NCBI RefSeq assembly: GCF_004565475.1
Contig: NZ_SRHX01000001.1
Location: 434,001 to 498,000 of the forward strand
Reading direction: 5' to 3'
Source: Lonepinella koalarum
GTDB lineage: Bacteria > Pseudomonadota > Gammaproteobacteria > Enterobacterales > Pasteurellaceae
DNA: 64,000 nt
Under the pieces are notes generated by a model. It was not told the origin of the DNA. It ran no database searches and was given only the letters and a program-made list of their open reading frames with translations. Position numbers and translations under genes: made by a program. Below, one piece after another: positions 17,260-42,248 of the stretch; within the stretch, counting starts at the first letter, position 1, and each line of letters opens with the position of its first letter.

Positions 17260-17268
17260 TTTTTCTCC

Positions 17269-20216: not shown

Positions 20217-20233
20217 AACGCTTTCTCCAATGA

Positions 20234-21646: not shown

Positions 21647-21682
21647 CTTCGGTCTCCATGAGTATAAAAATTAGAACACATT

Positions 21683-21701
21683 AAATATATTATACCAATT
21701 T
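21683..21701 (-). promoter_or_regulatory. uxaC promoter -10 overlapped by an UxuR/ExuR-like operator
   Basis: On the minus strand the sequence AAATTGGTATAATATATTT contains an extended -10 (TGG then TATAAT, 21695-21690). The same bases match the left half and centre of the E. coli ExuR/UxuR operator consensus (AAATTGGTATACCAATTT, from memory) at about 13 of 18 positions. A repressor bound here would block the -10 directly. Confidence 0.5.
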
Positions 21702-21723
21702 AAAGAAAAATAAACTTATTTTT

Positions 21724-21739
21724 TGTGACATAGATCACA
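21724..21739. promoter_or_regulatory. CRP site in the divergent galacturonate control region
   Basis: TGTGA-CATAGA-TCACA, a perfect match to the core CRP consensus and itself nearly palindromic. It lies about 48 bases upstream of the probable uxaC start point and about 45-60 bases upstream of candidate -10 elements (21764-21769 or 21779-21784) for the TRAP operon. It fits cAMP-dependent activation of both arms. Confidence 0.85.
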
Positions 21740-21899
21740 TTTCTGAAAATTTGTATGATAACTATAAATTTTATGTGTTACTATACGGGCGTGGGAAATA
21801 GGTTATAAGGATGGAATTGGGTGATTATCTCCTTAATAACATTGCTAATATCCTGTTTTCAATGGGAATAATTCTATAACTTAATGATTGGAGACGATT

Positions 21900-22883
21900 A
21901 TGAAACTAAAAAAATTTATTTTGTCTAGTCTATGTGTGGCAATGCCTGTTCTATTATCCACCAATGCAATGGCTAAAGTGACCTTAAAACTTGCTCATAA
22001 CCTTGAGCAATCGCATGTCGTGCATCAAGCATTAGCACAAATGGCGAAAGAAGTTCAAGAAAAATCAAATGGTGATTTAAATATTCGTATTTACCCAAGT
22101 GGTCAAATGGGCGGACCTAGAGAAACGATTGAACTCATTCAGAATGATGCTTTAGATATGACGAAAGCGAGCGCAAGTGAAATGGAATCCTTCGTTAAGG
22201 AATTCGCCGTATTTAGTTGTCCATATCTTTTTGATGATGAAGAACATTTTAAGAAAGTATTGTTCGGACCTGTTGGAAAAGAGATTGCAGATAAAACTCA
22301 AAATAGTGGCTTTAATGTTATCGCATCTTATGTCGCTGGTACACGAAGTTTTTATGCGAAAAAACCTATTCATTCTCCAGCCGATATGAAAGGCATGAAA
22401 ATTCGCGTAGTTTCCACCCCAACTACCAATAAATTAATTGAATTATTAAATGGCTCTCCTGCCCCAATTCCATTCGGTGAAGTTTATACCGCGTTGCAAC
22501 AAGGTGTGATTGATGGTGCTGAAAATAATATTCCTTCATATAATCAAACAAGACATTCAGAAGTTGCAAAATATTATATTGAAGATCAACATACCAGTGT
22601 TCCTGATTATTTAATTGTTTCTAGTAAAACGTGGAATAAATTAGATGATAATCAGCGTAAAATTTTGCAAGAAGCAGCGAAACATTCTGAGGAGTATCAA
22701 CAAAAATTATGGGATGAAGAAGTGGCAAGATCCCGTGCTGAAGCAGAAAAAACCGGAACAACCTTTATACAGGTTGATAAAAAACCATTCCGAGATGCTT
22801 TGCAACCACTTTATGAGGATTTTGCCAAAGATCCTAATTTAGCTAAAATTATTGAATCCATCAAATCTCAAGGAAATAAATAA
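21900..22883 (+). CDS. TRAP transporter substrate-binding protein (DctP family), probably for hexuronate
   Basis: Periplasmic receptor of a TRAP transporter. The ATG at 21900 follows GGAG at 21889-21892; it encodes a signal peptide (MKLKKFILSSLCVAMPVLLS, cleavage after AMA, about residue 25). The family's carboxylate-binding arginine is Arg169 in MKIRVVSTPTTNK, and GEVYTALQQGVIDGAENN is a DctP hallmark. Length 327 is normal. Because it is divergent from a complete galacturonate pathway and followed by an UxuR-type regulator, galacturonate (or glucuronate) is the probable ligand; this is inference. Confidence 0.9.
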   Translation: MKLKKFILSSLCVAMPVLLSTNAMAKVTLKLAHNLEQSHVVHQALAQMAKEVQEKSNGDLNIRIYPSGQMGGPRETIELIQNDALDMTKASASEMESFVKEFAVFSCPYLFDDEEHFKKVLFGPVGKEIADKTQNSGFNVIASYVAGTRSFYAKKPIHSPADMKGMKIRVVSTPTTNKLIELLNGSPAPIPFGEVYTALQQGVIDGAENNIPSYNQTRHSEVAKYYIEDQHTSVPDYLIVSSKTWNKLDDNQRKILQEAAKHSEEYQQKLWDEEVARSRAEAEKTGTTFIQVDKKPFRDALQPLYEDFAKDPNLAKIIESIKSQGNK

Positions 22884-22888
22884 GGAAT

Positions 22889-22920
22889 AGTCCGATCTAT
22901 TTATAGATCGGACTTTATTT
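22889..22920 (+). terminator. Terminator between binding-protein and permease genes
   Basis: Perfect 11-bp stem AGTCCGATCTA (22889-22899) and TAGATCGGACT (22904-22914) with a 4-base loop, then TTATTT. It lies 6 bases after the binding-protein stop and 26 bases before the small permease. Partial readthrough would give much more binding protein than permease. Confidence 0.8.
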
Positions 22921-22945
22921 CATAATTATAGTTGGAGGCATTCCA

Positions 22946-23437
22946 ATGTTATTGGAAAAAATAAAAAAACCGATCGATAAATTTATCTCAACTTTTTCAA
23001 TTATTGTGATGATTTTATTGGTTATTTGTGTTACTTGGCAGGTCTTTAGTCGTTATGTATTGAAAATGCCAAGTACTGTAACAGATGAAGTGGCAAGATT
23101 TAGTATGATTTGGGTCGGATTACTCGGCGCGTCTTATACCGTTGGATTGCAAAAGCATCTGTCCATTGATTTATTTACTCATAATCTATCAGTTAAAAAG
23201 AAAGCAATGAGTAATATATTTATTAATATTTGTATCTGTATTTTTTCTTTGTCTGTTCTGGTATTTGGTGGTGCAACTTTAGTTGCTAATGTTTATGCCA
23301 CAGGACAAATATCCCCATCAATGCAAATTCCAATGGCTTATGTTTATATTGCATTACCTTTAAGTGGTATTCTAATGGTTTTTTATAGTGTTTTATTTCT
23401 CATCCAAAATATTTTTCTGCTTAAGGAGAACAAATAA
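22946..23437 (+). CDS. TRAP transporter small permease (DctQ family)
   Basis: Integral membrane subunit of 163 residues with four hydrophobic segments (about 15-38, 50-67, 90-112 and 130-153), the DctQ layout. VCVTWQVFSRYVL and TDEVARFSMIWVGLLGAS are typical of the family. The GTTGGAGG stretch provides the ribosome-binding site. Its last base is shared with the start of the large permease. Confidence 0.9.
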   Translation: MLLEKIKKPIDKFISTFSIIVMILLVICVTWQVFSRYVLKMPSTVTDEVARFSMIWVGLLGASYTVGLQKHLSIDLFTHNLSVKKKAMSNIFINICICIFSLSVLVFGGATLVANVYATGQISPSMQIPMAYVYIALPLSGILMVFYSVLFLIQNIFLLKENK

Positions 23438-24753
23438 TGGAATGGTTACTATCATGGGAATGGTTTATTCCGCTTGTAATGTTTACATCTTTCTTTTTAT
23501 TAGTCTTTTTAGGGGTGCCTATCTCTTTTTCTATCGGTATTTCAACCTTAATTTCAGGGGGATTTATGCTCCCATTAAATACCACGATGATTGTTTCAGG
23601 ACAGAAAATAGCCACCGGCTTAGATAGTTTCTCATTACTTGCAATTCCTTTTTTTATTCTTGCTGGATCATTAATGAATAGTGGTGGAATTGCCACAAGA
23701 TTGATTAACTTCTCTCAAGTACTTGTTGGGCGGATTCCCGGTTCCTTAGGGCATGTTAATGTATTGGCTAATATGATGTTTGGCTCAATTTCAGGGTCTG
23801 CTGTTGCCGCAGCGGCTGCGGTAGGTGGAACGATGTCACCGTTACAAAAGAAAGCGGGCTATGATCCTAGTTATTCTGCAGCAATTAATGTCACATCCTG
23901 TATAACCGGATTGTTAATTCCTCCATCAAATGTCATGATTGTTTACGCCTTAACGGCCGGTGGTATTTCAGTAGCCACGCTTTTTATGGCGGGTTATGTA
24001 CCAGGTACGTTAATGGGACTCGGTATTATGGCTGTCAATTTCTTTATTGCTAAAAAACGAAAATACCCCATTTCAGAAAAACCAACACTATCATTAATTA
24101 TTAAATATACTTTAGATGCTATCCCTAGTTTATTAATGGTAGTGGTTGTGATTGGAGGGATATTAGCGGGCGTTTTTACCGCTACAGAAGCCTCTGCTAT
24201 TGCGGTTGTTTATACTTTTGTTTTATCTGTTCTTATTTATCGTGAAATTAAGTTTTCTCAGCTACCTAAAATCATCTTAGAATCAGTTATTACCACTTCA
24301 ATTGTGTTATTCTTAATCGGGGTTTCCGTAGCAATGTCTTGGGCGATGACTAATGCGGATATTCCATATATGGTAAATGAATTATTAATGAGTGTATCAG
24401 ATAACTTAATTGTTATCTTACTGATTATTAATGTACTTTTATTAGTTATTGGTATTTTTATGGATATGACGCCCGCTGTGTTGATTTTCACCCCTATTTT
24501 TCTTCCGATTGTGACAAATTTAGGGATGAGTCCAATTCATTTTGGTATTATGATGATTTTTAACTTGTGTATTGGGTTGTGTACACCACCAGTGGGAAGT
24601 GCATTATTTGTAGGATGCTCTGTATCTGGCGTTAAATTACAAGACTTAATTAAGCCTATGTTACCATTCTTTGTGGTGTTACTTGTTACATTGTTTTTAG
24701 TCACTTATATTCCGCAGTTATCATTATTCTTACCTAATTTATTGGGTTTATAA
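23437..24753 (+). CDS. TRAP transporter large permease (DctM family)
   Basis: Sodium-coupled transport subunit of 438 residues with about twelve hydrophobic segments. Family marks include FFILAGSLMNSGGIATRL, GSISGSAVAAAAAVGG, LIPPSNVMIVYAL and the repeated LCTPPVGSALFVG. Overlaps the small permease by one base, which suggests translational coupling. Ends at a strong hairpin. Confidence 0.93.
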   Translation: MEWLLSWEWFIPLVMFTSFFLLVFLGVPISFSIGISTLISGGFMLPLNTTMIVSGQKIATGLDSFSLLAIPFFILAGSLMNSGGIATRLINFSQVLVGRIPGSLGHVNVLANMMFGSISGSAVAAAAAVGGTMSPLQKKAGYDPSYSAAINVTSCITGLLIPPSNVMIVYALTAGGISVATLFMAGYVPGTLMGLGIMAVNFFIAKKRKYPISEKPTLSLIIKYTLDAIPSLLMVVVVIGGILAGVFTATEASAIAVVYTFVLSVLIYREIKFSQLPKIILESVITTSIVLFLIGVSVAMSWAMTNADIPYMVNELLMSVSDNLIVILLIINVLLLVIGIFMDMTPAVLIFTPIFLPIVTNLGMSPIHFGIMMIFNLCIGLCTPPVGSALFVGCSVSGVKLQDLIKPMLPFFVVLLVTLFLVTYIPQLSLFLPNLLGL

Positions 24754-24757
24754 TTTA

Positions 24758-24802
24758 AAATAGTTGTTGCCACATTAGTCGTGGTAGCAACTATTTCTTT
24801 TC
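24758..24802 (+). terminator. Terminator of the TRAP operon
   Basis: A 16-bp stem with two G-U pairs (24758-24773 with 24781-24796; outer arms AAATAGTTG and CAACTATTT), 7-base loop, followed by CTTTTC. It separates the TRAP genes from the regulator gene. Confidence 0.75.
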
Positions 24803-24826
24803 CTATCTCTCATCATAGCAAATTTG

Positions 24827-24835
24827 TGCTATAAT
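24827..24835 (+). promoter_or_regulatory. Extended -10 promoter of the UxuR-type regulator
   Basis: TGC followed by a perfect TATAAT (24830-24835), 35 bases before the regulator start. An ATACCAAT half-site like that of the UxuR/ExuR operator follows at 24863-24870, just before the ATG, so autoregulation is possible. Confidence 0.5.
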
Positions 24836-24870
24836 CTAGCATATATGTTTCCAATAGAAGTAATACCAAT

Positions 24871-25662
24871 ATGAAATTAATGGATAATCAGCGTCTTTAT
24901 CAACAACTAGCTCAAGATCTTAAACAGAAGATTATTAATGGGTTTTATAAAGTCGGAGAGAAATTACCTGCTGAAAGATTTATTTCGGAAGAAATGAATG
25001 TCAGTCGCACGGTGGTAAGAGAAGCGATAATTATGCTTGAAGTGGAAGGTTTTGTTGAAGTTAAGAAAGGTTCCGGTATTCATGTTATATCATCGACACC
25101 CAAAAATTTTACCCAATCTGATGAAAATCGTGGACTGGAATTTTCCGATTGCGGTCCTTTTGAACTATTACAAGCCCGTCAATTAATTGAAAGTATCGTT
25201 GCTGAATTTGCTGCATCTCAAGTAACCAAAGAAGATATTATTGATATTATGGAAATTCAAAAAAATGCTAGACAAGAAGATCATTTTCGTGATTCAGAAT
25301 GGGATTTAAAATTTCATACTAAAGTAGCACAAATTACTCGAAACAGTGCTTTGATTACTATTGTTCAAGAAATGTGGCGGCAAAGGGTGCTTAATCCTTA
25401 TTGGCTCAAATTACATGAGCATATTGATGCTCGCTCTATTGATAGTTGGTGTGATGACCACGACAAAATATTAAGAGCGCTAATGAATAAGGATCCTGAT
25501 GCAGCCAAAATAGCAATGTGGCAACATCTGGAACATACCAAACAGATGTTATTCAATGGTGCCAATAATGATTTTGAAATAGGTATAGATAAATATCGCT
25601 TTTCAGATAATCCAGTGATTCATCTTTCTGGTACTATTGATTCTTTGAATAAGAAAGCGTAA
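24871..25662 (+). CDS. uxuR: GntR/FadR-family hexuronate regulator (UxuR/ExuR-like)
   Basis: A 263-residue transcription factor. The N-terminal winged helix (about residues 8-75) includes [19 protein letters not shown] and [10 protein letters not shown]; the C-terminal FCD ligand domain carries [21 protein letters not shown] and the HDKIL metal-binding-type histidine. These segments parallel E. coli UxuR and ExuR. In E. coli these repress hexuronate genes and are released by fructuronate, tagaturonate or galacturonate. Here the target is probably the divergent uxa/TRAP region. An ATG three codons downstream (24880) is an alternative start. Which of the two E. coli proteins it corresponds to cannot be decided. 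Confidence 0.85.
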
Positions 25663-26464: not shown

Positions 26465-26499
26465 AAAAATGGATTAGAGAATAAATCTAATCCATTTTT
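26465..26499. terminator. Bidirectional terminator between rlmB and the MFS gene
   Basis: Perfect 14-bp inverted repeat AAAAATGGATTAGA (26465-26478) and TCTAATCCATTTTT (26486-26499) with a 7-base loop; the outer A and T runs supply U-tracts on both strands. It closes rlmB on the plus strand and the reductase operon on the minus strand. Confidence 0.88.
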
Positions 26500-26508
26500 T
26501 TATTTGCT

Positions 26509-27735
26509 CTATTTTTCAGCATATGAATAAAATCGATCAGCTAACAAGCCACCAATTAAGAATATTAGGGTTGTTATTGCCAATACCACAAAACTCACCA
26601 ACCACGCCCCCGATAATTGATACAGTCCCCCAATAATCATAGGGCTTAAAGATGCCATCACATAACCAATTGATTGTACAACGGAAGATGTATAGCGGTT
26701 TTCTTCTAGTGAAGATGATTTAGAAATAATCAACGAGAAGATAACAACGTATGCACCGCCACAGCCTATGCCTCCCATAATATCCCATAATAACCACCAG
26801 TCTGGCAATAAATAGAAACCAACAGGTACTAGAAACCAAGCTAATCCATCAATAATAAATAGCCATTTTTGTGAAAGTTTGAACCATTTACCAAGCAACG
26901 GCATACCTAAGCAACCAATAAATCCTAGTAAGTGAAAAATGGATACCACTACACCCGCTTTATCACTACTCATCTGAGCAAATTCCACAAGGAAACTTGG
27001 TAGCCATGCTACAACGCCATAAAAAGCAAAACAGTGACAAGAAAATGAAACCGTGAGTGCAATAATCGCTGAAACATGCTCTCTAGAAAATTGACTTAAA
27101 GAAATCGTGGATTTTTTCACCGCACTTTCTTCAATACGAATCGCAAGCCGATCATTTTTGGCTTTTTCACGGCGATAGCGTGGAATCCATAAAAATAAAC
27201 TTAATAATGCAAGCAAGCTCCAACTAGCTAACGCCCAACGCCAATCCAATAAATGGCTCATTGGGACAGTGAGTGAAGATGTGATCATTCCCCCTAAACT
27301 CATGCCTAACACCATCATTCCTGTCATAAAACTCGCATTAGATTTAAAATCACGGGCAATAATTAATAATCCTAGCAGGTTGCCAATAGTGAGTGATAAG
27401 CCAATAATAATGGTACCTGATAGCATAAAGCCAGTATCGCCAACGGCTCGTAAAATCGAACCCAAAGTAACACCAATAAGACTTAACATTACGGAATTTT
27501 CAATTCCCATTTTACCGATAATTTTTGATGCAAAGGGGGTAAACAAACCAAAACAAAGGACAGGAATCGTGGTTAATACACCAGCAAACACAGGTGACAT
27601 GGCAAGACTGGCTTTTACTTCACTGATAACAGGGGGAAGTGAAGTAATTGGAGCACGTAAATTTAAGGATAGGGTAAGAAAGGCGAAAAACATCACCCAT
27701 TTCATACGACTACGGCGTGTTTTGACTGATTGCAT
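26509..27735 (-). CDS. MFS transporter, CynX/NimT family
   Basis: A 408-residue protein with about twelve hydrophobic segments. The N-terminal LTLSLNLRAPITSLPPVI matches the CynX/YycB/NimT branch, which includes cyanate and nitroimidazole-type transporters. The substrate cannot be told from sequence. It lies last in the minus-strand operon of reductase, apbE and porin genes, 20 bases after apbE, so it may import the reductase substrate or export its product. An uptake signal lies inside it (27119-27127). Confidence 0.8.
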   Translation of the reverse strand: MQSVKTRRSRMKWVMFFAFLTLSLNLRAPITSLPPVISEVKASLAMSPVFAGVLTTIPVLCFGLFTPFASKIIGKMGIENSVMLSLIGVTLGSILRAVGDTGFMLSGTIIIGLSLTIGNLLGLLIIARDFKSNASFMTGMMVLGMSLGGMITSSLTVPMSHLLDWRWALASWSLLALLSLFLWIPRYRREKAKNDRLAIRIEESAVKKSTISLSQFSREHVSAIIALTVSFSCHCFAFYGVVAWLPSFLVEFAQMSSDKAGVVVSIFHLLGFIGCLGMPLLGKWFKLSQKWLFIIDGLAWFLVPVGFYLLPDWWLLWDIMGGIGCGGAYVVIFSLIISKSSSLEENRYTSSVVQSIGYVMASLSPMIIGGLYQLSGAWLVSFVVLAITTLIFLIGGLLADRFYSYAEK

Positions 27736-27755
27736 AAAATAATCTCCGTAAAATA

Positions 27756-28733
27756 TTAAATAACCGAGTTAATATTGGTTAATTCATAGTCTGAACTCAC
27801 CAATTTAAAAGATGAAACTAAATTTGAAGTTACATAAACTTTTTGATCTTTGCTGATAAAGATGGCTGCAAAATGCGGTATTTTTTCAATGAATTTCAAT
27901 CCGTCTTCAAGCCCTTTGAAATAAACTTGAGTAGATAAAATTTCCCCTTCAACAGAACGATCAGAAATAATGGTGACACTGTCTAATTGACTTTCAAAAG
28001 GATAGCCTGTATTGGGATCGATAATATGATGATAAGATTTACCTTGAATTTCCGTATATTTTTCATAATTGCCCGATGTCACAATGGATTTATTTTTCAC
28101 AGCAACAATGCCGACATATTGCCCACGTTTTGCAAAGGGTTGTTGAATCCCGACTTTCCATTGACCTTGAGCATTGTGTGGTGCTTCACCAAACGCAATC
28201 ACATTTCCCCCTAAATCAATAATGCCAGCATAAATTTGATACTGGGCTAACAATTGAACAAGGCGATCCGCAATATAGCCTTTCGCAATTGCTCCAAGAT
28301 CAAATTGCATGCCAGCTTTACTTAAAAATACGGTTTGTTTCTTTGCATCAAGAACAATATCGTGTGGATTAATCAATTTTAATGACTGAGCAACGTTTTG
28401 TTCTGTAGGTAAATGATGTTGTTGGAAACTCGTTTTCCATAACCGAGTAAGAGAACCTATAACCGCATTAAATCCCGAATTAGGTGCTAAACTGGCTAAG
28501 GTCGCCTGTTGAATAAGGTCAAAAACATCACTGCTTACTTGAACAGGCGACAATCCTGCCGCCTGATTAATTGACATCACTTCTGAATAAGGGCGATTGA
28601 CAGTGAATTTATCTTCAAGGTTTTTAACCAATTGATAAACAGCTACTTTTATTTCATCAACAATTGGCGTAAATACCGTAATCGTATTTACTGTTCCCAT
28701 TGCGATAAACGTCGTCACTGATTTTTCTACCAT
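27756..28733 (-). CDS. apbE: FAD:protein FMN transferase ApbE
   Basis: Enzyme that transfers FMN from FAD to a threonine or serine of target flavoproteins. Family motifs are FIAMGTVNTI at the N terminus, FDLGAIAKGYIADRL, GIIDLGGNV and HHIIDPNTGYP. There is no signal peptide or lipobox, so it should act in the cytoplasm, unlike the periplasmic ApbE proteins that serve Rnf and Nqr. It lies 21 bases after the large reductase gene, whose FMN_bind domain carries a matching acceptor motif, so that protein is the obvious target. Confidence 0.92.
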   Translation of the reverse strand: MVEKSVTTFIAMGTVNTITVFTPIVDEIKVAVYQLVKNLEDKFTVNRPYSEVMSINQAAGLSPVQVSSDVFDLIQQATLASLAPNSGFNAVIGSLTRLWKTSFQQHHLPTEQNVAQSLKLINPHDIVLDAKKQTVFLSKAGMQFDLGAIAKGYIADRLVQLLAQYQIYAGIIDLGGNVIAFGEAPHNAQGQWKVGIQQPFAKRGQYVGIVAVKNKSIVTSGNYEKYTEIQGKSYHHIIDPNTGYPFESQLDSVTIISDRSVEGEILSTQVYFKGLEDGLKFIEKIPHFAAIFISKDQKVYVTSNLVSSFKLVSSDYELTNINSVI

Positions 28734-28754
28734 ACAACCGCCTAATATTAATGG

Positions 28755-31700
28755 CTAAATTTGATTAGCACAGTTTTTACCTGCAACATAACCATAGAAC
28801 ATTGCCATAGAGTGGCTAACCCCTTTCATACAAATTGGGTATTCCACGGCAACACGGTTACCCTGTACGTTACCTGCCACATACAATCCTTTGATCACAT
28901 TACGATCCACATCATAGGTATGTGAATCTTCATCACTTTCTAAGCCACCTAAACAGGTTAACATCGTCGTCGTGACAAAACGCACTGCGTAGAATGGTCC
29001 TTGGTTAATAGCAAACAAACGTGATGGCGATTTAGCAAAATCTTCATCATAACCGGCTTGTGCTAATTGGTTGTAACGTTCAATGGATTTCAATGCGGTT
29101 TCTTGATCAATATCTAATTGAGCAAGCAATTCTGGCAAAGTATCTGCAACCAGCACATTACCTTCATCCACTTCATGTTGGAACTCTTTATCGCCAATAT
29201 GACTGAGTGAACATTTCGGATGATTTTTCACTTCATCATTGTCGTAATAAGACACGGTGCCATGTGCTGCTGGCATATAGGCAAGTTGTTCACGCCATTG
29301 GTTATCAAAGAGTTGATAACAGATATTATCTGGCTGCATTTCAATTTGATTTTCCAATTGTTGACCCGGTACTTCTTCGTTCATAAAGCGTTTGCCATGT
29401 TTGTTTAAGAACAAGAATGGGTTATTACCTAAGCCACCTGCCATACCAAATGGACCACCCATGTTGTGAGTCATTGGAGCATGATGTTGTTGGATTCTTG
29501 CTCCGATTTGAGCACCAAGTTTATGACCATCACCAGTATTGGTTAAATTACCTTCCACATCACGGTTAAGCCAAATATTTTTCACTCCACTTTCGCTGAT
29601 TTCAGGACAATAATGATCCACCATTTTTTTATTGCTACCATAATCCCCAGTGGCTAATACCACGCCACGTTTGGCGATAATACGAACGTATTTGCCTGTT
29701 GCGGCATTACGAGCAATTACGCCTGTCACTTTGTCGCCGTCTTTCAATAATTTTTCCACAAAATGACCAAAGCGTGCATCAACATTACCTGTATCTAATG
29801 CTTTTTGGAAGTTAGCATTAATCATTGGTGCTTGGCTTGGCACAAAATGCACAGATGTTGGATAAGTTGGGTAGTCTTCGTTTTTATAGTTATAATGCGG
29901 TGGTAAAGGATGTTCCATTGGCTCTAAGAAGAAATCCGCATGCTCATCTGGTACTGGAGAGCGTTGGGTTTCACAAATCCACATATCCGGTTTCGCACTA
30001 ATAAACCAATCAAATACATCTGCACAGTTTTTCGCCCAGCGAGAAACGATCGGACGTTTGATACGATAGCTACATTCACGCATAAAACGGTCGACCATTT
30101 CATCCACATTGAAATTATCTCGTCCCCAACGAGCTTGGACTTTACCATTGATAATGGCATATTCCCCACTACGACATTGTGGACTGTCAGCTTTCTCAAT
30201 AACAACGACTTTCGCCCCTTCTTCCGCAGCAGCACGCACCGCACAAGTACCCGCTACACCACAACCCACAATCACCACATCGGTTTCAATGTTTTCTTCA
30301 ATTTGAGATTCATCCACCGAAAGTTCATCTGGTAACCAAGGTAACTCAGGTAATTTATTTTTACTCATTTTTGTTCCAGTGGCTTTAGCAATAATCCGAT
30401 CTACGGCTTCTAATACAGATTGACAGCTTTCCGTTGCACCACTCACTACATCAACATCATCGGTACCGTCTTTTTCTTTAATACGGCGAGCCATTTCAGT
30501 AAAGGCATCAATCGTCACCCCTGGAGCTAAACTCTTTCCTGTCACATCAATTTTTTGAATAGAAACTCTGTCTAAGGTTACTTCCACATGAACCATACCA
30601 TGGAAATCAGCAAAACGTTCTACATAAGTACCGGGTACAAATTCTTTGCGTGGAGCTTGTTTATTCAGATAGGATTTTTCTTCTTTCTCCATTGAAGGGC
30701 CAATAATATCCCATACCGTTTCTGGCACATGGCGAGCTTTACAATCTTCAATGTGCATGAAATTTAAAACTTCTTCCCCATTTTTGATTTTTTGCAACCA
30801 ACGTGGCTCAACAATAATGGCTTTACCAATAGAGACTAAATCAAAACCATGAGCAAAGGCATTATCCAAATCTTTCGCTTGTTTAATACTACCCACGCCC
30901 ATTACTGGAATTTTTGCCAAGGTTTCAGAACGGTTTTGAATTAATTTATCAATTAACGGTTGTTTGTCGTGTAAATCAATAATAGATGTTTGCACTGCCT
31001 GACCAGTGGAGAAATGTAAATAATCCAGCCCTTTGTGAGCTAATTTCTCTAGCAAGAATAAGGTGTCATCATAATTAATCCCCGGTTTTTCCAATTCTTC
31101 AGGTGAAAAACGATAGCCGACAACAAAGGGTTTATCACCCAAACATTTTTTAACTGTGGATTTTACCACATCCACAATCGCTAATGGAAATCTAGCTCGT
31201 TTTTCAATATCGCCACCCCATTGGTCATCACGACGATTAGAGTGCGGTGAAAAAAATTGTTGAATTAAATAGGTATTGGCACCATGAATTTCTACCCCAG
31301 CAAAGCCTGCTTTAATCGCTCTTTCGGTGGCTAAACCAAAATCAACAATCAATTGATCAATTTCATCTACAGTTAATGCTTTCGGTTCAACACAACCGTG
31401 ACGACAGGCTGCAATTGCACTAGGCGCAATCGCTACACTACCATCAGGAAGTAGTTCAGGGCGAACCATACGTCCACCATGATAAATTTGCATAATTGGC
31501 ACCGAACCTTGTTGTTTGATTGCTTCTGCAATTTTGGCTAATCCTGCAATATGATCATCGGTAGATAAGCCGACACCACCGGGAAATGCCATACCATTAC
31601 GTTGCACATAACCACACTCCACCACAATCGCCCCAACATCTTTGGCACGTTCACGATAGTAAGTGACTAATTCATCATTCACAAAACCATTTTCATCGGC

Positions 31701-31787
31701 AGATTGTGTTGTCATTGGTGCCATAAATACCCGATTTTTCAGTGTTACGCCAGATGCTAGCGTTAATTGTTCAAAAGCAGTTGTCAT
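28755..31787 (-). CDS. Three-domain NADH-dependent flavoprotein reductase (OYE, FMN_bind and fumarate-reductase-like FAD domains)
   Basis: A 1010-residue cytosolic protein without signal peptide. Residues 1-365 form an Old-yellow-enzyme barrel (RVFMAPMTTQS, EIHGANTYLIQQFFSPHSN). About 400-475 is an FMN_bind domain with the ApbE acceptor motif DVVSGATES, acceptor Thr452. From about 503 a fumarate-reductase/succinate-dehydrogenase-type flavoprotein follows (DVVIVGCGVAGTCAVRAA, KHGKRFMNE, GLYVAGNVQGNR). The same order occurs in soluble NADH:fumarate reductase of Klebsiella, where electrons pass from NADH through FMN and covalent FMN to FAD. The active-site HTMGG and GANRLGG segments of fumarate reductases are replaced by LTCLGG and GNRVAVEYPICMKG, so the substrate is probably another unsaturated acid. 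Function beyond this is unknown. Confidence 0.85.
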   Translation of the reverse strand: MTTAFEQLTLASGVTLKNRVFMAPMTTQSADENGFVNDELVTYYRERAKDVGAIVVECGYVQRNGMAFPGGVGLSTDDHIAGLAKIAEAIKQQGSVPIMQIYHGGRMVRPELLPDGSVAIAPSAIAACRHGCVEPKALTVDEIDQLIVDFGLATERAIKAGFAGVEIHGANTYLIQQFFSPHSNRRDDQWGGDIEKRARFPLAIVDVVKSTVKKCLGDKPFVVGYRFSPEELEKPGINYDDTLFLLEKLAHKGLDYLHFSTGQAVQTSIIDLHDKQPLIDKLIQNRSETLAKIPVMGVGSIKQAKDLDNAFAHGFDLVSIGKAIIVEPRWLQKIKNGEEVLNFMHIEDCKARHVPETVWDIIGPSMEKEEKSYLNKQAPRKEFVPGTYVERFADFHGMVHVEVTLDRVSIQKIDVTGKSLAPGVTIDAFTEMARRIKEKDGTDDVDVVSGATESCQSVLEAVDRIIAKATGTKMSKNKLPELPWLPDELSVDESQIEENIETDVVIVGCGVAGTCAVRAAAEEGAKVVVIEKADSPQCRSGEYAIINGKVQARWGRDNFNVDEMVDRFMRECSYRIKRPIVSRWAKNCADVFDWFISAKPDMWICETQRSPVPDEHADFFLEPMEHPLPPHYNYKNEDYPTYPTSVHFVPSQAPMINANFQKALDTGNVDARFGHFVEKLLKDGDKVTGVIARNAATGKYVRIIAKRGVVLATGDYGSNKKMVDHYCPEISESGVKNIWLNRDVEGNLTNTGDGHKLGAQIGARIQQHHAPMTHNMGGPFGMAGGLGNNPFLFLNKHGKRFMNEEVPGQQLENQIEMQPDNICYQLFDNQWREQLAYMPAAHGTVSYYDNDEVKNHPKCSLSHIGDKEFQHEVDEGNVLVADTLPELLAQLDIDQETALKSIERYNQLAQAGYDEDFAKSPSRLFAINQGPFYAVRFVTTTMLTCLGGLESDEDSHTYDVDRNVIKGLYVAGNVQGNRVAVEYPICMKGVSHSMAMFYGYVAGKNCANQI

Positions 31788-31812
31788 ATATAAAATCCCC
31801 TTGATTTTTATG

Positions 31813-33153
31813 TTATTTGGTTAAGCCTAAGGCATTATCTAATAAAAGCGTAATCGCTAAACTGGCAGAATAACCGTCTTTAGGGCGTTCTGTAATCACT
31901 TGCCCTGTATTCGCATTCATCCAGTTGTTAGCATGCCACACTCTGCCAACTGACCCCTGTACGATCAATGACGGCAACACTGGAATTGTTGCATCAACGC
32001 TAAGTTGGTATTGATTTTTACGAGCATACCAGTTTTCATTACCAACATAGCTAGCCGTCATTGCACGTTGTTGTCCATTGCTTACTTTGGCCCAGTTAAA
32101 ATTTAAACCATAGCTATCCATTGGACGGCTTTTAAATGGACCATTTAAAATCACCCCAGCACTCACAAAGCTAGACAATCCACCATTGTTAATATCATCA
32201 AATGTTTTGGATAATGATGCGTAAGCACTTAATGTAGTGGCACTTGGCTGTTTTTCACTACCATCATCTAAACGCCAAAATAATTTTTTTATCCCCGCAT
32301 GCATACCTGTTACGCCACTAAGCTGTTTTTTATCTACCACTAAAGGATCGGCATCAACAAAACGATGCGTATTGTGGAAAAAAGTTAATTCCCAAGTCAA
32401 TGGGTATTTGCTTTGACTATTTCGCCACTCTTCTGTGCGAGAAAGACCTGCTAACCATAAATTTCCTGTTGGATGTTTGCTATTCCAACCGTTATCCCAA
32501 CCATTCGTGAATGGATAATCTGAGAATGTTCGCCAGCCACTTGCACTAAACTCTAAACTTGGCGTAAGTTTATAAGCTACCCGACCACCCCATGCAGAAT
32601 AAATCACTGGGCTAAATGCGGCGGTTTTGTGCAATAAAGGATTTACACAACTAAATTCAAAATTACACAAAGATTTGCCGTAATAAAACCCGGGATTACT
32701 TCTACCCACTTCAATAGACAAACGATCATCAAACAGTTTTTGTTCATAGGTCAATTTTGTTAAATGAGCAACTTTAGGGATATAAGGTGGGGGATTACCC
32801 ACTAAAATATCGCCCGCTTGAGAGCCAAAATTGAAGTTTTTGTGATAAGGTGCCCAAGCATAGGAAAAATGGAAATTACCGCCTTTGATAGATGCTAATT
32901 TTTGTAAATCTGCATCAAATCCAGCCATCACAATAACAAGCTGTTCATTTTTCCCTTTCTGGATACCCATATCAAAGTTATCAAAATAGAGATAAGATGA
33001 CATTAAGTGCGGTTTAATTCCGTGCTGTTCTAGCCAATTCCCCACATCGCTTAATGGTTTTTGAGATTCCGTTTCGGCTTGAGCTGTGATTGCTCCCAAC
33101 GTTATTACTGAACAGCATAATCCTTGCATTAATTTAGAATGATTGATTTTCAT
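31813..33153 (-). CDS. Outer-membrane porin, OprB-like (carbohydrate-selective porin family)
   Basis: A 446-residue protein with a signal peptide (about residues 1-26, ending ITAQA before ETESQ) and alternating beta-strand-like sequence throughout. The segment AHLTKLTYEQKLFDDRLSIEVGRSNPG resembles OprB-family porins. It ends in ...LGLTK rather than the usual terminal aromatic residue, so assembly or family placement is not certain. Lying between an MFS gene and the reductase gene with gaps of 9 and 25 bases, it probably lets the reductase substrate cross the outer membrane. An uptake signal is near its 5' end (33005-33013). Confidence 0.7.
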   Translation of the reverse strand: MKINHSKLMQGLCCSVITLGAITAQAETESQKPLSDVGNWLEQHGIKPHLMSSYLYFDNFDMGIQKGKNEQLVIVMAGFDADLQKLASIKGGNFHFSYAWAPYHKNFNFGSQAGDILVGNPPPYIPKVAHLTKLTYEQKLFDDRLSIEVGRSNPGFYYGKSLCNFEFSCVNPLLHKTAAFSPVIYSAWGGRVAYKLTPSLEFSASGWRTFSDYPFTNGWDNGWNSKHPTGNLWLAGLSRTEEWRNSQSKYPLTWELTFFHNTHRFVDADPLVVDKKQLSGVTGMHAGIKKLFWRLDDGSEKQPSATTLSAYASLSKTFDDINNGGLSSFVSAGVILNGPFKSRPMDSYGLNFNWAKVSNGQQRAMTASYVGNENWYARKNQYQLSVDATIPVLPSLIVQGSVGRVWHANNWMNANTGQVITERPKDGYSASLAITLLLDNALGLTK

Positions 33154-33162
33154 AACAACCCC

Positions 33163-34362
33163 TTAGTTATTTTTTACTTTTAATTTAAACCCAACAAGAC
33201 CACCGATAATAGATACGGTAATCATGGCAATAAATGAGGAACTGTAAGTACCTAATGTGCTTAGCAACAAGGCACAGGCATAAGGTGATAAAATACCTGC
33301 GGCAAAATTAAACATCATGGTGAAACCAGATACTTTACCAATCACTTCTTTTGGATAGGTTCTTGCAATGAAAGAGAGTGTGATTGGTGAAATGAAACTT
33401 TGGAATAAACCTAGAATAAGTAAACAAATAATTAATCCGGCAGTTTCGGTGTATTGTGTAATAACAAAACTAAAAATTGCGGAAATTAAGAAACAGACTA
33501 AAATAACTAAGTTATCCTTTTGTCCTTTTAGCCAAATACCTGCAACAGCACCACCGAGTGGTGAACCGATGGCATAGGCAATAGAATAGTAGAACATTAA
33601 GTCTGCTCCGTGAATTTGCCCTAAACCTAATTCCGTACCAATAAAACCAGCTCCCACAGAGTTTACGGATTGTTGTAGCCAAGTACTACAAAATAGACTA
33701 ACAACACCGATGAGAACTAATGGTTGTAAGAGTTTAAATTCAGTAGCTGTTTGTTGCATCGGAGATGGTACATCAAGCTCAACTGGTTCTAATTTCGGAC
33801 AGAAAATCACAATTAAAGTAAGGACAATACCGGTTAAATTAATTAAAGAAAGATAATAGAAAACGGTTCCCCAATCTTCCACATAAGTCACTAAACGAGG
33901 AACTAACACAAAGCCAATCGCAATCCCGATAGAGACTGCCATACCTTGCAAACCTGTTACTATGCCATGTTCATTTTGTTTAAACCATTGTCTTGCCACA
34001 AGCGTAATGGACACCATAATCGGTCCTGTACCTAAACCTTGAAATGCACGGCTCAAGAAAATGCCCCACACTTCATTGCCTAGATTGGCCATCACCACGT
34101 TACCGCAGATAACCAGTGCCAAACAAAGCACATAAATTTTCGTTACGCCAAATTTATCTACCAAAATACCGCCAGCCATCACGGATAATACGATAAATAA
34201 ATTAAACGTACTCATTGATGCGGTAATAATAGTCGGTGGAGCAAGATGAGAAGAAGATGAAATACTGTCAACAATGGTAACTGGTGCAATGAGAATTAAT
34301 GACGTTGATGCGGTGACAATAAACATCACAAATAACACGAACCATCTAAATTTGGAATACAT
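33163..34362 (-). CDS. MFS transporter, oxalate/formate-antiporter-like
   Basis: A 399-residue protein with about twelve hydrophobic segments; the N-terminal half has the MFS loop GILVDKFGVTKIY and the RAFQGLGTGPIMVS helix. Overall it resembles MFS carriers for small organic anions, but the substrate is not readable. It is the first gene of the operon, with GGAGT before the ATG at 34362, so it is the best candidate for uptake of the acid reduced by the enzyme encoded downstream. Confidence 0.78.
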   Translation of the reverse strand: MYSKFRWFVLFVMFIVTASTSLILIAPVTIVDSISSSSHLAPPTIITASMSTFNLFIVLSVMAGGILVDKFGVTKIYVLCLALVICGNVVMANLGNEVWGIFLSRAFQGLGTGPIMVSITLVARQWFKQNEHGIVTGLQGMAVSIGIAIGFVLVPRLVTYVEDWGTVFYYLSLINLTGIVLTLIVIFCPKLEPVELDVPSPMQQTATEFKLLQPLVLIGVVSLFCSTWLQQSVNSVGAGFIGTELGLGQIHGADLMFYYSIAYAIGSPLGGAVAGIWLKGQKDNLVILVCFLISAIFSFVITQYTETAGLIICLLILGLFQSFISPITLSFIARTYPKEVIGKVSGFTMMFNFAAGILSPYACALLLSTLGTYSSSFIAMITVSIIGGLVGFKLKVKNN

Positions 34363-34603: not shown

Positions 34604-34625
34604 TTTTCCGTATCAATACGGAAAA
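34604..34625. promoter_or_regulatory. Perfect inverted repeat, candidate operator
   Basis: Arms TTTTCCGTAT (34604-34613) and ATACGGAAAA (34616-34625) around CA. Followed by TTTCGC rather than a T-run, so an operator fits better than a terminator. It lies 133 bases before the first glucosidase gene; the LicR-type regulator of the cluster is one candidate to bind it. Confidence 0.5.
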
Positions 34626-34685: not shown

Positions 34686-36182
<1,497 letters not shown>

Positions 36183-36192
36183 GGAGAGTTGT

Positions 36193-36507
36193 ATGAAAAA
36201 AGCATTAATTATTTGTGCCGCGGGCATGTCTTCTTCGTTAATGGCAAAAAAAACCACGGATTTTTTAAAATCCAAAGAACATGATATTAGCATTGATGCG
36301 GTATCTGCTACTGAAGGGCAAAAAGCCATTGAATCTGGGGCGTTTGATTTGTATTTAATCAGTCCGCAAACAAAAATGTATTTGGCGAAATTTACTGAAC
36401 TCGGGCAAAAAGTAGGTAAACCTGTGGAAAGTATTCCACCACAGGCCTATGTACCCATTCCTATGGGCGTTGAGAAATTAGCCAATTTGGTGTTGGAAAA
36501 AATCTAG
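36193..36507 (+). CDS. celA: PTS EIIB component, lactose/cellobiose family
   Basis: Cytosolic phosphocarrier that passes phosphate from EIIA to the incoming beta-glucoside. A 104-residue protein; phosphorylated cysteine is Cys8 in LIICAAGMSSSL, the EIIB-Lac/Cel P-loop. The ATG at 36193 has AAGGAGAG before it; a longer frame upstream lies within the previous gene and is not used. It is the only EIIB of this type in the cluster and must serve both EIIC permeases. Confidence 0.92.
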   Translation: MKKALIICAAGMSSSLMAKKTTDFLKSKEHDISIDAVSATEGQKAIESGAFDLYLISPQTKMYLAKFTELGQKVGKPVESIPPQAYVPIPMGVEKLANLVLEKI

Positions 36508-36527
36508 CCTAAGCAAAGGGGTAGGGT

Positions 36528-38504
36528 ATGTTTAATAAAAAAGAAATTGCCATTTTGCAATATTTATTCGACAACCAAGATCGCTTTGTCACTAGTGAGC
36601 AATTGGGATTGCAGTTAAATTGCTCTGACCGTACCATACGTCATTATATTAAAAGCCTTAATTCGGAATTGCCCCAATACGGGGCAAGTTTGCTGGCAAA
36701 ACAAGGAAATGGCTATCAATTACAGATTGAAAATCTCGATCAATTTAGACCGCAGTTACAGCTTAGCCGTCCGCGTAGAGCAATTGAAAACAAGCAGGAT
36801 CGGCAAAAATATATTTTACAACAACTTTGTTTTAATCAACCGCATATTTTATTTGATCGGCTTGAACAAGAGCTGTTTGTCAGTCGTTCGACCTTGTCGG
36901 CGGATTTTAAAGAAATCAGTGATCTGATTAAACCCTATCAATTAATTTTACGAAGTAAAGCCAATCAAGGAGTAAGCATTCAGGGCAGTGAACAAAATTA
37001 CCGCAGTTTTATCATGGATTATTTCTTTAAGGAAAATTTCGGTGATGCCATTAATCGTTATATTGGTAACGCTATTTTTGTCGATGAAATTCGTTTTGAA
37101 CAGTTACTACAAATTATTTTAGAAGAATGTCGCAAAGGTAAATTGTATTTGGCAGATTTTATGTTACAAAATTTAGCTTTGCATATTTTATTGGCAATTA
37201 AGCGGATTAAAACAGGGCATAAACTGAATATTAACCTTGATCAACATGAATTAAACGAACATGTCAATGAAAGTCGAGTGGCAGAAAATATTATTGCTAG
37301 AATTAAAGCGGAAAATCATGTGAGCATGCCACAAAGTGAAATTGATTATATTACTTTGCAGTTACTCGCCAAAGGCAAACGCCATTCTTCTCAGCTTTCT
37401 GAGCAAGCTCAACAACAAGCAGAAATTAAACGACGGATTGAACAAATTGAGCAAGCCTTACAAGTTCAATTACAAGATGATGAAAGCTTATTGCAAGCTA
37501 TTTCGCAGCATTTGCAGTTACTCATCACAAGACTAAAAAATCATATCACATTGGAGAATCCCCTTTGTCAAGAAATTAAGCAAAATTACCAAGGGATTTT
37601 TCAATTAGTGCGGTCAAATTTTGCCGAGTTTCCAGCATTTGACGGCATGGAAGTCAGTGATGATGAATATTCCTATTTAACCTTGCATATTCTCGGTGCT
37701 ATTGAGCGTTATCAAAATAAGAAAAAATTAAATGTACTGGTAGTTTGCGCTACGGGCTATAGCGCGGCACAATTTATTAAAAATCGCCTTGCCTACGAGT
37801 TTAATGACAGCCTGAATATTAAAGATGTGGTGAGTTATTATGAATTAAGCGATCAGGTGTTGGCAGGTATTGATTTTATTGTATCTTCAGTGGATTTGTC
37901 TAATTTGGTATTTAAAGTACCGGTGATCCATTCTAGTATTTTTCTTAAAAATGAAGAATTTGAGAAAATTAGACAACTTATTAAACAGCTTAAAACCCAT
38001 GATGTGCCGTTTGATCCTATTTTACCGACAGATTCGCTTAATCAGAATAAGCAAGACTTATTATTACGTTTTTTCCGCCCTGATTATTTTCTGCTCGGTG
38101 AACAAGGGATCAGTAAAAAGCAACTTATCGGACAACTTATTGATCGTTGTGCTGGGCAGGAAAATGAAAAATATGTGCGCCGTATGCGTGAGCAAATTCA
38201 GCAACGAGAAAATTTAAGTTCAGTGGCATTTAGCCCTTATCTTGCAGTGCCACATCCGATAAAACCCGTGGGCGAACAATGTAAAATTGCCGTGGGACTT
38301 GTGCCAAAAGGATTAGTTTGGGATGAAATGCATCCCCATATTCAGCTAGTATTTTTAATTTCACCATCACAATATGGCAATGCAGATCTAAAGGTTATTA
38401 CCTCTGCCATGGTGAAATTAAGTGAGGATGAACGAGCCCAGCAAAAAATGGCACAATGCCAAGATTTCGATCAATTTATTCAACTTTTTTCATCATTTAT
38501 CTAG
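36528..38504 (+). CDS. licR: PRD-containing transcriptional activator, LicR type
   Basis: A 658-residue multidomain regulator. In order: HTH (SSEQLGLQLNCSDRTIRHYI-like segment, residues 1-60), second HTH/Mga region (about 85-160), PRD1 (about 175-290), PRD2 (about 305-400, YLTLHILGAIERY), EIIB-like domain with Cys407 in VVCATGYS, and EIIA-like domain with His576 in LAVPHPIK. LicR/MtlR activators are set by phosphorylation from the PTS: phosphate on EIIB/EIIA domains lowers activity when no sugar passes, PRD phosphate raises it when preferred sugars are absent. Sitting inside the operon suggests local control of the beta-glucoside genes. Confidence 0.9.
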   Translation: MFNKKEIAILQYLFDNQDRFVTSEQLGLQLNCSDRTIRHYIKSLNSELPQYGASLLAKQGNGYQLQIENLDQFRPQLQLSRPRRAIENKQDRQKYILQQLCFNQPHILFDRLEQELFVSRSTLSADFKEISDLIKPYQLILRSKANQGVSIQGSEQNYRSFIMDYFFKENFGDAINRYIGNAIFVDEIRFEQLLQIILEECRKGKLYLADFMLQNLALHILLAIKRIKTGHKLNINLDQHELNEHVNESRVAENIIARIKAENHVSMPQSEIDYITLQLLAKGKRHSSQLSEQAQQQAEIKRRIEQIEQALQVQLQDDESLLQAISQHLQLLITRLKNHITLENPLCQEIKQNYQGIFQLVRSNFAEFPAFDGMEVSDDEYSYLTLHILGAIERYQNKKKLNVLVVCATGYSAAQFIKNRLAYEFNDSLNIKDVVSYYELSDQVLAGIDFIVSSVDLSNLVFKVPVIHSSIFLKNEEFEKIRQLIKQLKTHDVPFDPILPTDSLNQNKQDLLLRFFRPDYFLLGEQGISKKQLIGQLIDRCAGQENEKYVRRMREQIQQRENLSSVAFSPYLAVPHPIKPVGEQCKIAVGLVPKGLVWDEMHPHIQLVFLISPSQYGNADLKVITSAMVKLSEDERAQQKMAQCQDFDQFIQLFSSFI

Positions 38505-38514
38505 GAGTATCCAC

Positions 38515-38853
38515 ATGGAACAACAAACTATGTCGCAAGAAGATCTACAGGTGGTCGCTTTTGAAATTATTGTCCACAGTGGCGATGCCCGCAGTCTTAT
38601 TCATCAAGCCCTGAGTTTAATGAAACAAGGGGAATTTAGCCAAGCACAATGCCAGTTAGATGAAGCCAATAAAAATTTATTGGAAGCACATAAATCGCAA
38701 ACAAGTCTGTTAAAAGACTATGCCTGCGGTACGGTGATCAACATGGAAATTATTATGGTGCATGCACAAGACCATTTAATGTCAACCATGTTATTACATG
38801 AAATCGCCCTTGAATTTTTAGCATTGCATCAAAAAATAGCGGAGCAGGTATAG
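38515..38853 (+). CDS. celC: PTS EIIA component, lactose/cellobiose family
   Basis: Phosphocarrier between HPr and EIIB. A 112-residue, all-helical protein; the phosphorylated histidine is most likely His83 in IMVHAQDHLMS, a family signature. The ATG at 38515 follows AGGAG; the frame is open further upstream but that part overlaps licR. Only EIIA of this type in the cluster. Confidence 0.93.
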   Translation: MEQQTMSQEDLQVVAFEIIVHSGDARSLIHQALSLMKQGEFSQAQCQLDEANKNLLEAHKSQTSLLKDYACGTVINMEIIMVHAQDHLMSTMLLHEIALEFLALHQKIAEQV

Positions 38854-38854
38854 T

Positions 38855-39349
38855 ATGTCAACGCTTTCCCATCGCCAACAAATGACCTTGCGATCGTTAT
38901 ATTTCAATCGCTTTTTATGGGTACGTTATGCGGCAGCCTTGTTATTTTTTACCACGTTATTATGGACTTGTGCCATGTGGTTATCACAAGCCAGCCTATT
39001 GGTCATACCTGCGGTGTTGTTATTGTTACTTGGCACGGCCTATGTGGAACAAGTCAGACTTTATTATCGCCATAATGCTCAAGCCCCTTGGACGTACGCT
39101 ATTTTTAAACTGCTTTTAATCAGTCATGTAGGGTTATTGGGTTTGTTGTTTACGCCCTATGCCAAGGCATTATTCCCTTTTGTTCGAGATCCACACAGCA
39201 TTGTATTGGTGGGATATATGGGGATTGCTATTTTGTTGATAAGTGGGGTATTGCGAAAACTATACCGTATCCGCACTAACCAAGACAGCCATTATCATCA
39301 TATTATAGCGTACCAAAAACAACTCAACTTAAAAGGAGATTCCCGATGA
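38855..39349 (+). CDS. Small integral membrane protein of unknown function in the PTS operon
   Basis: A 164-residue protein with four hydrophobic segments (about 25-43, 47-63, 84-101 and 119-135) separated by short basic loops, and a basic, histidine-containing tail (RTNQDSHYHHIIAYQKQ). I do not recognise a family. It begins one base after the EIIA stop and overlaps the EIIC start by 4 bases, so it is firmly part of the operon and translationally coupled to the permease. A role as an accessory to EIIC or in sensing is possible but unsupported. Confidence 0.75.
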   Translation: MSTLSHRQQMTLRSLYFNRFLWVRYAAALLFFTTLLWTCAMWLSQASLLVIPAVLLLLLGTAYVEQVRLYYRHNAQAPWTYAIFKLLLISHVGLLGLLFTPYAKALFPFVRDPHSIVLVGYMGIAILLISGVLRKLYRIRTNQDSHYHHIIAYQKQLNLKGDSR

Positions 39350-40677: not shown

Positions 40678-40739
40678 AACGGTGGTAAAAAAGACCGCAC
40701 TTTTAACAATGAATTATCAGTGAAAAGTAACAGGAGTAA

Positions 40740-42167
<1,428 letters not shown>

Positions 42168-42191
42168 ACGGCGATTTTTCGCCACTATCAT

Positions 42192-42217
42192 TCGCCATTA
42201 TCTCCGCATAATGGCGA
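42192..42217 (+). other. Intercistronic hairpin before the second EIIC gene
   Basis: Perfect 10-bp stem TCGCCATTAT (42192-42201) and ATAATGGCGA (42208-42217) with a 6-base loop. A shorter GGCGA/TCGCC hairpin is just upstream (42170-42183). Neither has a strong T-tract after it, so they look like RNA-processing or stabilising structures, or an operator, rather than terminators. Confidence 0.5.
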
Positions 42218-42248
42218 CATCATCAGTTAATTTAGGAGAAAATCCGCT

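Follow-up and report, generated by a model that had tools for sequence, protein, structure and literature searches.

A 64,000-nucleotide stretch of the Lonepinella koalarum genome (contig NZ_SRHX01000001.1, positions 434,001 to 498,000; hereafter the window) carries a compact five-gene operon whose central product, a three-domain flavin reductase, joins an NADH-type input half to a catalytic FAD domain that groups with stand-alone flavoproteins. Two major facilitator superfamily (MFS) carriers, an OprB-family porin and an ApbE flavin transferase complete the operon. We propose that the reductase corresponds to an enzyme that is usually exported and fed by cytochromes, but is itself soluble, takes its electrons from NADH and has its own import route. 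It would act as an electron sink, in detoxification or in both, and we assign this reading a probability of about 0.6. Function guesses drawn from a whole chain are common; in this protein the half that takes NADH and the half that meets the substrate have different relatives, and a label of fumarate or enoate reductase would mislead.

The reductase chain opens with its OYE-like domain and possesses neither a twin-arginine (Tat) signal nor a heme motif. The NADH-type input module claimed in the initial annotation is supported by the Pfam score of this domain (246 bits), and the ApbE acceptor motif DVVSGATES that it had pointed out is indeed present, beside an ApbE partner. Residues D446-V-V-S-G-A-T452 fit the flavinylation motif D-x-x-[ST]-G-A-[ST] given in the available text of an ApbE review (PMC12052999). 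Toward the C-terminus, FAD_binding_2 is matched over residues 503–980 with 143 bits.

Identity separates the two halves of the protein. Residues 1–480 are 43.1–48.5% identical (388–449 bits) to all the fused reductases compared (43 rows, 42 distinct, L042 and L080 being the same place in genome G365), whereas the FAD domain shares 20–31% identity and at most 127 bits with the same rows, which are not independent because many come from one genus (f27). Over its length the FAD domain instead shares 39–41% identity with a stand-alone protein from a Subdoligranulum variabile plasmid record, and it is 26–37% identical to 20 other stand-alone proteins. A tree of 37 FAD domains took in 17 of the 43 fused rows and 19 of the 28 stand-alone proteins (the two of L137 and seven added later were left out). 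It joined the window domain to that of Subdoligranulum with support of 100/99 and then to L123 with 100/98, the 17 other fused proteins being set apart at 100/99. An approximately unbiased (AU) test rejected placement of the window domain with the fused proteins (p 0.0025), and the kinship with Subdoligranulum is also plain by identity alone.

The whole reductase was matched in 45 of 394 genomes of the order, its own included, at E ≤ 1e-75, mostly by fused OYE/FMN_bind/FAD proteins and in a few cases by OYE alone; at E ≤ 1e-90 its own genome was the only match among 369 genomes of the class. A whole-protein scan of genome contigs yielded seven loci whose similarity was confined to the OYE part, together with two fused proteins from Gemella, and plasmid matches covering 80% of the reductase numbered 94 records, the best 20 of which reach at most 37.7% identity. 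With the FAD domain as query, no relative was found at E ≤ 1e-20 in the 139 other genomes of the family (1 of 140, its own). At E ≤ 1e-30, 2 of 299 genomes of its own phylum were matched, the other being G066 (28% and 34% identity), as were 11 of 299 genomes of the phylum of G780; at E ≤ 1e-60 the domain was matched in 16 of 131 genomes of the family of G1316. Viral contigs scanned with the FAD domain held no relatives.

Positions of flavocytochrome c3 (Fcc3) were placed by motif on a joint alignment of 72 rows, 71 of them distinct, throughout which Fcc3 Arg402 is an arginine (Arg800 in the window enzyme). His504 and Arg544 of Fcc3, equivalent to His520 and Arg560 of UrdA, hold the substrate carboxylate according to the available text of PMC7921117. 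Both residues are kept in 34/34 FRD-length rows (33 distinct) and in 7/7 rows of the ~1005-residue type, and both are absent from the window enzyme, which has Leu943 and Cys986 there, and from 28/28 stand-alone proteins. If Glu378 and Arg381, likewise fumarate-binding residues of Fcc3, are added, all four residues occur in every one of the 34 FRD-length rows and none in the window enzyme. A Y-x5-G motif (Tyr983 and Gly989) is found in the window enzyme and all 28 stand-alone proteins; none of the 43 other fused rows has it.

These residues and the tree bear directly on the view that the enzyme is an ordinary, diverged NADH-dependent enoate reductase, of the Klebsiella fumarate or Vibrio acrylate-cinnamate type, using a simple unsaturated carboxylate as an electron sink. 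The three-domain order and the ApbE partner are shared with both the FRD-length and ~1005-residue proteins, the N-terminal half is as close to fused reductases as given above, and the annotation of one FRD-length locus includes fumA, dcuR and a DASS carrier, which suggests that the design serves carboxylates. Against this, the FAD domain groups elsewhere in both the tree and the AU test, His504 and Arg544 are missing, and the window carriers are MFS proteins, neither DASS nor Dcu, so we regard such an enoate reductase as unlikely. The initial annotation, judging by the whole protein, had filed the enzyme with the known enoate reductases, a placement that the grouping of the FAD domain and the loss of His504 and Arg544 do not support. 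Fumarate, acrylate, crotonate and urocanate are for the same two reasons less likely substrates than it had held, although one alignment keeps a counterpart of His365. We think it unlikely that the substrate is fumarate or a simple enoate, and probable that it is an unsaturated compound of neutral or phenolic character.

The stand-alone relatives comprise 28 proteins from 23 loci, L136 (G1146, a 317-residue open frame) being excluded for want of a complete open reading frame (ORF). From the 16 matching genomes in the family of G1316, seven besides G1316 itself were sampled, chosen from the closest, so that the set leans toward the window's subclade. It also contains some redundancy: L137 is almost a repeat of L125, as is L165 of L164, and some genomes contribute several loci. 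A twin-arginine signal is present in 25 of the 28, 24 by pattern and one by eye as an ARRTFLK variant; the three proteins lacking the motif include that of Subdoligranulum. A gene for a protein with at least three CXXCH motifs lies within 500 bases of 17 of the 28 and within 4 kb of 21, and the remaining seven have no such gene in the stretch examined, some stretches stopping at contig ends. Cytochrome c3 models fitted all five heme-motif neighbors tested, and NapC/NirT models fitted four of these as well; and genes for heme c assembly occur nearby (ResB in L125 and L137, CcmF in L163). To judge from signals and gene neighbors, the stand-alone relatives have the look of reductases that are exported and receive electrons from membrane cytochromes. 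The window domain shares their clade and their Y-x5-G motif and has neither a twin-arginine signal nor a multiheme gene in its operon.

Two loci recall the OprB porin of the window, although two are few. At L138 of G066, genes for a c3 cytochrome and then a Phenol_MetA_deg barrel come after that of the reductase, which on its other side faces the gene of a XylR_N/sigma-54 activator such as those of aromatic catabolism, and in L135 a gene for an SLH protein directly follows that of the reductase. The third gene after the stand-alone reductase of L138 (L138:11524-13002) matches a reductive dehalogenase subunit with 108 bits. In L164 an MFS gene, identified by Pfam, follows the reductase and cytochrome genes, and the near copy L165 has one by likeness.

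The FAD domain was also compared with family models and by structure prediction. Among NCBIfam models, the VprA vinylphenol reductase scored 141 bits (equivalog cut-off 600), flavocytochrome c 139 bits and the PRK12844 3-ketosteroid dehydrogenase 135 bits (equivalog cut-off 789). An AlphaFold model of the FAD domain built on 19 sequences had a mean pLDDT of 78, with values below 50 at 128–149, 246–256, 286–295 and 352–374, and its matches in the Protein Data Bank were urocanate reductase, flavocytochrome c3 and ketosteroid dehydrogenases (Z 32.6–37.3). The predicted structure confirms the fold and does not choose the substrate. A dehydrogenase resembling 3-ketosteroid dehydrogenase, which would oxidize an imported compound and pass electrons to NAD+, could account for the near-equal NCBIfam scores and for the position of Tyr983 in the region of Fcc3 Arg544. 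Ketosteroid dehydrogenases also superpose with lower root-mean-square deviation (rmsd), at Z 32.6–34.5 versus 34.6–37.3 for the urocanate and flavocytochrome c reductases. This direction is nonetheless very improbable in our estimate: the relatives, with their Tat signals, multiheme neighbors and heme c assembly genes, look like terminal reductases, and an OYE module is generally expected to take hydride from NADH.

Several observations weigh against the reading that we propose. A fused FAD domain of the window type was found in no other matched genome, the other matching open frames being at most 625 residues long, so the domain swap rests on one protein. The closest stand-alone relative, from Subdoligranulum, has no Tat signal and no heme-protein gene in the 21.5 kb of sequence covered. 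The tree program warns of long branches meeting, and the AU test was done after the tree had been seen. In the tree of the N-terminal half the window protein falls outside the FRD-length group as well as the Vibrio/Staphylococcus/Gemella group, on a long branch of 2.15, which points to no particular donor of the NADH module and may mean that the fusion is old. The FMN_bind domain scores only 34.9 bits. Fcc3 His365 aligns with His774 of the window enzyme in one alignment and with a proline in another, so a counterpart may be kept, and other contacts might serve to bind a carboxylate. Finally, the two Gemella fused proteins (L003 and L008) likewise lack His504 and Arg544, and the loss of these residues is thus not proof of a swap.

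Two related proposals were abandoned. Loss of His365 was dropped as a statement, the two alignments disagreeing. A direct origin of the N-terminal half and ApbE from an FRD-type operon was also dropped, given the N-half branch outside both subgroups and an ApbE closer to only three of the four FRD-length loci. The operon ApbE is 45–47% identical to ApbE at those three loci, 38% at the fourth (L081) and 37–39% at six loci of the ~1005-residue type. The Gemella reductases possibly represent a third substrate type, judging from their residues; that of L008 has serine, not threonine, at the flavinylation site.

Considering both sides, we still prefer a soluble, NADH-fed reductase with its own import. 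Its more specific form is a compartment switch, in which the catalytic domain of an exported, cytochrome-fed enzyme was joined to an OYE/FMN_bind module and embedded, within a single lineage of the family, in an import operon for a non-carboxylate substrate that might be a plant phenolic; for this the odds seem to us evenly balanced. The external compound would pass the outer membrane through OprB and the inner membrane by one MFS carrier, while the other carrier may export or exchange the product. ApbE would attach FMN to Thr452, and electrons would run from NADH through the OYE-like domain and the covalent FMN to the FAD of the C-terminal domain. This FAD would give hydride to the substrate, with Arg800 (Fcc3 Arg402) donating the proton, and the reduction would take place in the cytoplasm and serve as electron sink, as detoxification or as both. 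A catalytic domain working inside the cell on an NADH module would explain the inner-membrane carriers and the cytoplasmic ApbE; an inner-membrane carrier is needed by a reductase inside the cell and not by an exported one. We infer a dedicated external substrate from the gene content.

Detoxification without an energetic role overlaps this proposal. Here the reductase would disarm a plant or host compound and a CynX/NimT-like carrier expel it, the porin and carriers lacking strict specificity. MFS carrier B is CynX/NimT-like (TIGR00896, 207 bits, under the cut-off of 406), an MFS gene also follows the reductase and cytochrome genes at L164 and, by likeness, L165, and the available text of PMC5953540 describes action of an exported FAD reductase, Cgr2, on plant cardenolides. 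One would hardly expect a cell to keep a porin and an import carrier for a toxin, and we consider detoxification as the sole role rather doubtful.

The idea that electron-input parts around FAD_binding_2 reductases are swapped as modules is well established. In the literature consulted, no title or opening of an abstract mentions a stand-alone-type catalytic domain on an NADH/OYE module, and titles and abstract openings cannot show that the combination is unpublished. If the swap is true, a soluble, NADH-driven form would make it easy to assay the substrate class of a set of exported reductases that otherwise rely on membrane cytochromes.

The operon, its reductase domains and the flanking elements are collected in Table 1. 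The five minus-strand ORFs are separated by gaps of 9, 25, 21 and 20 bases, and every Pfam match of their products lies above the curated cut-off. The gene content and spacing given in the initial annotation agree with the ORFs and Pfam, and the latter bears out its set of genes for import plus reduction. No CXXCH heme motif occurs in any operon ORF. By eye, the OprB porin begins with a signal-peptide-like segment ending AQA-ET, and ApbE begins MVEKSVTTFIAMGTVN with no visible signal peptide. The only other ApbE match of the genome, by eye of the lipoprotein type, lies beside an NqrF-like ORF.

Table 1. Features of the reductase operon and its flanks, in window coordinates
Feature	Position	Strand	Basis or remark
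MFS carrier A, first gene, 399 aa	34362-33163	minus	Pfam MFS_1, 123 bits
OprB-family outer-membrane porin, 446 aa	33153-31813	minus	Pfam OprB PF04966, 90 bits
Three-domain flavin reductase, 1010 aa	31787-28755	minus	ORF list and Pfam
OYE-like domain, residues 5-337, presumed NADH entry	30777-31775	minus	Oxidored_FMN PF00724, 246 bits
FMN_bind domain, residues 395-466	30390-30605	minus	PF04205, 34.9 bits, cut-off 22
Flavinylation motif DVVSGAT, D446-T452	30432-30452	minus	ORF translation and alignment; T452 presumed FMN site
Catalytic FAD domain, residues 490-1010, stand-alone-flavoprotein type	28758-30320	minus	Identity, tree, AlphaFold model
ApbE, FAD:protein FMN transferase, 325 aa	28733-27756	minus	Pfam ApbE, 263 bits
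MFS carrier B, last gene, 408 aa	27735-26509	minus	Pfam MFS_1, 88 bits
Palindrome TTTTCCGTAT-CA-ATACGGAAAA, perfect 10+10	34604-34625		Operator candidate, in spacer to divergent GH1 gene
Inverted repeat with T tail, 14-base perfect	26465-26499		Terminator candidate between operon end and rlmB

Relatives of the transport proteins are sparse. At E ≤ 1e-30 the OprB porin was matched in its own genome alone (1 of 295 genomes of the order), and plasmid relatives of the porin and both carriers all fall below 40% identity among the matches listed. Of the plasmid neighborhoods inspected, that in Novosphingobium carried no annotation and that in Methylovirgula gave no useful information. Carrier A had two plasmid matches, the better of which, from Agrobacterium K84 (24% identity), adjoins a flavoprotein gene. 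At this K84 locus (L091:7974-10686) the carrier-A-like MFS gene overlaps that of a VprA-like flavoprotein (238 bits, cut-off 600); by sequence, this is a second pairing of a carrier-A-type MFS protein with an FAD protein.

The ORF list shows no regulator gene inside the operon. The 20-base core of the palindrome occurs as one exact copy in the genome, with three mismatches at two further places. The terminator candidate has only three G-C pairs and rests on length and place, since the terminator scan gave seven sites in total versus 6.3 in shuffles. The genome measures 2.5 Mb and the window has a GC content of about 38–39%; L. koalarum is described as a koala-gut bacterium with 2.6 Mb and 39.02% GC in the available text of PMC7583611.

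Sugar genes lie on both sides of the operon. Next to it (34758–43574) is a doubled beta-glucoside cluster with two GH1-type glucosidase genes, two near-alike genes resembling EIIC of the phosphotransferase system (PTS) and a PTS-type regulator; one GH1 is confirmed by NCBIfam, and the second GH1, EIIC and the regulator were assigned by eye. Some 10 kb before rlmB (15725–25662) are taken up by galacturonate catabolism with a TRAP carrier, recognized by eye, and an ExuR-type regulator confirmed by NCBIfam. In two other genomes of the family (L143 and L144) the neighbor of rlmB matches the window ORF at 13276–15663 (rnr by eye), and the uronate genes are therefore absent from that spot there. In G001, the one other genome of the genus covered, rlmB is 91% identical and has other neighbors on both sides, and neither the 13276–15663 ORF nor the operon is present. 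The notion that uronate genes had split an rnr-rlmB pair was not borne out, rlmB of G001, the nearest genome, having different neighbors. The variable region and its plant-sugar genes together give a weak hint at a plant-derived substrate.

Among known systems, the Klebsiella NADH:fumarate reductase has the domain order OYE/FMN_bind/FAD. The initial annotation's comparison with this design holds for OYE, FMN_bind and FAD_binding_2 in one chain, the flavinylation motif and an ApbE judged cytoplasmic by eye. The N-terminal half is likewise 44–48.5% identical to FRD-length proteins. In contrast, the FAD domain is 20–26% identical to theirs and lacks their His504, Arg544 and Ser-Glu...Arg stretch. 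The NADH-dependent flavin oxidoreductases of 1003–1020 residues from Vibrio and Staphylococcus, whose function we take to be acrylate or cinnamate reduction, resemble the window enzyme in length and domain order, with an ApbE neighbor in 6/7 loci examined. Unlike the window enzyme, they keep His504 and Arg544 in 7/7 cases, and their FAD domains are 27–31% identical to its own. Of the two ApbE proteins of Klebsiella, the cytoplasmic one serves the soluble fumarate reductase, according to the available text of PMC12052999.

The Cgr1/Cgr2 pair of Eggerthella, an example of the cytochrome-linked FAD reductases of gut bacteria, is described in the available text of PMC5953540 as an exported reductase with a cytochrome, having lost most fumarate reductase residues. 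The group of the window FAD domain is similar in being largely Tat-exported with NapC-like cytochrome neighbors, whereas the window enzyme, likened to Cgr2 by description only, has no Tat signal or heme motif and brings its own NADH module. UrdA also carries covalent FMN (available text of PMC7921117). In the alignments made, the window enzyme lacks counterparts of the carboxylate-holding residues of UrdA (Arg560, His520) and Fcc3 (Arg544, His504), and it shares with both proteins the fold (Z 37.3 and 36.8, rmsd 5.4–7.3, 436–438 aligned residues) and the proton-donor arginine.

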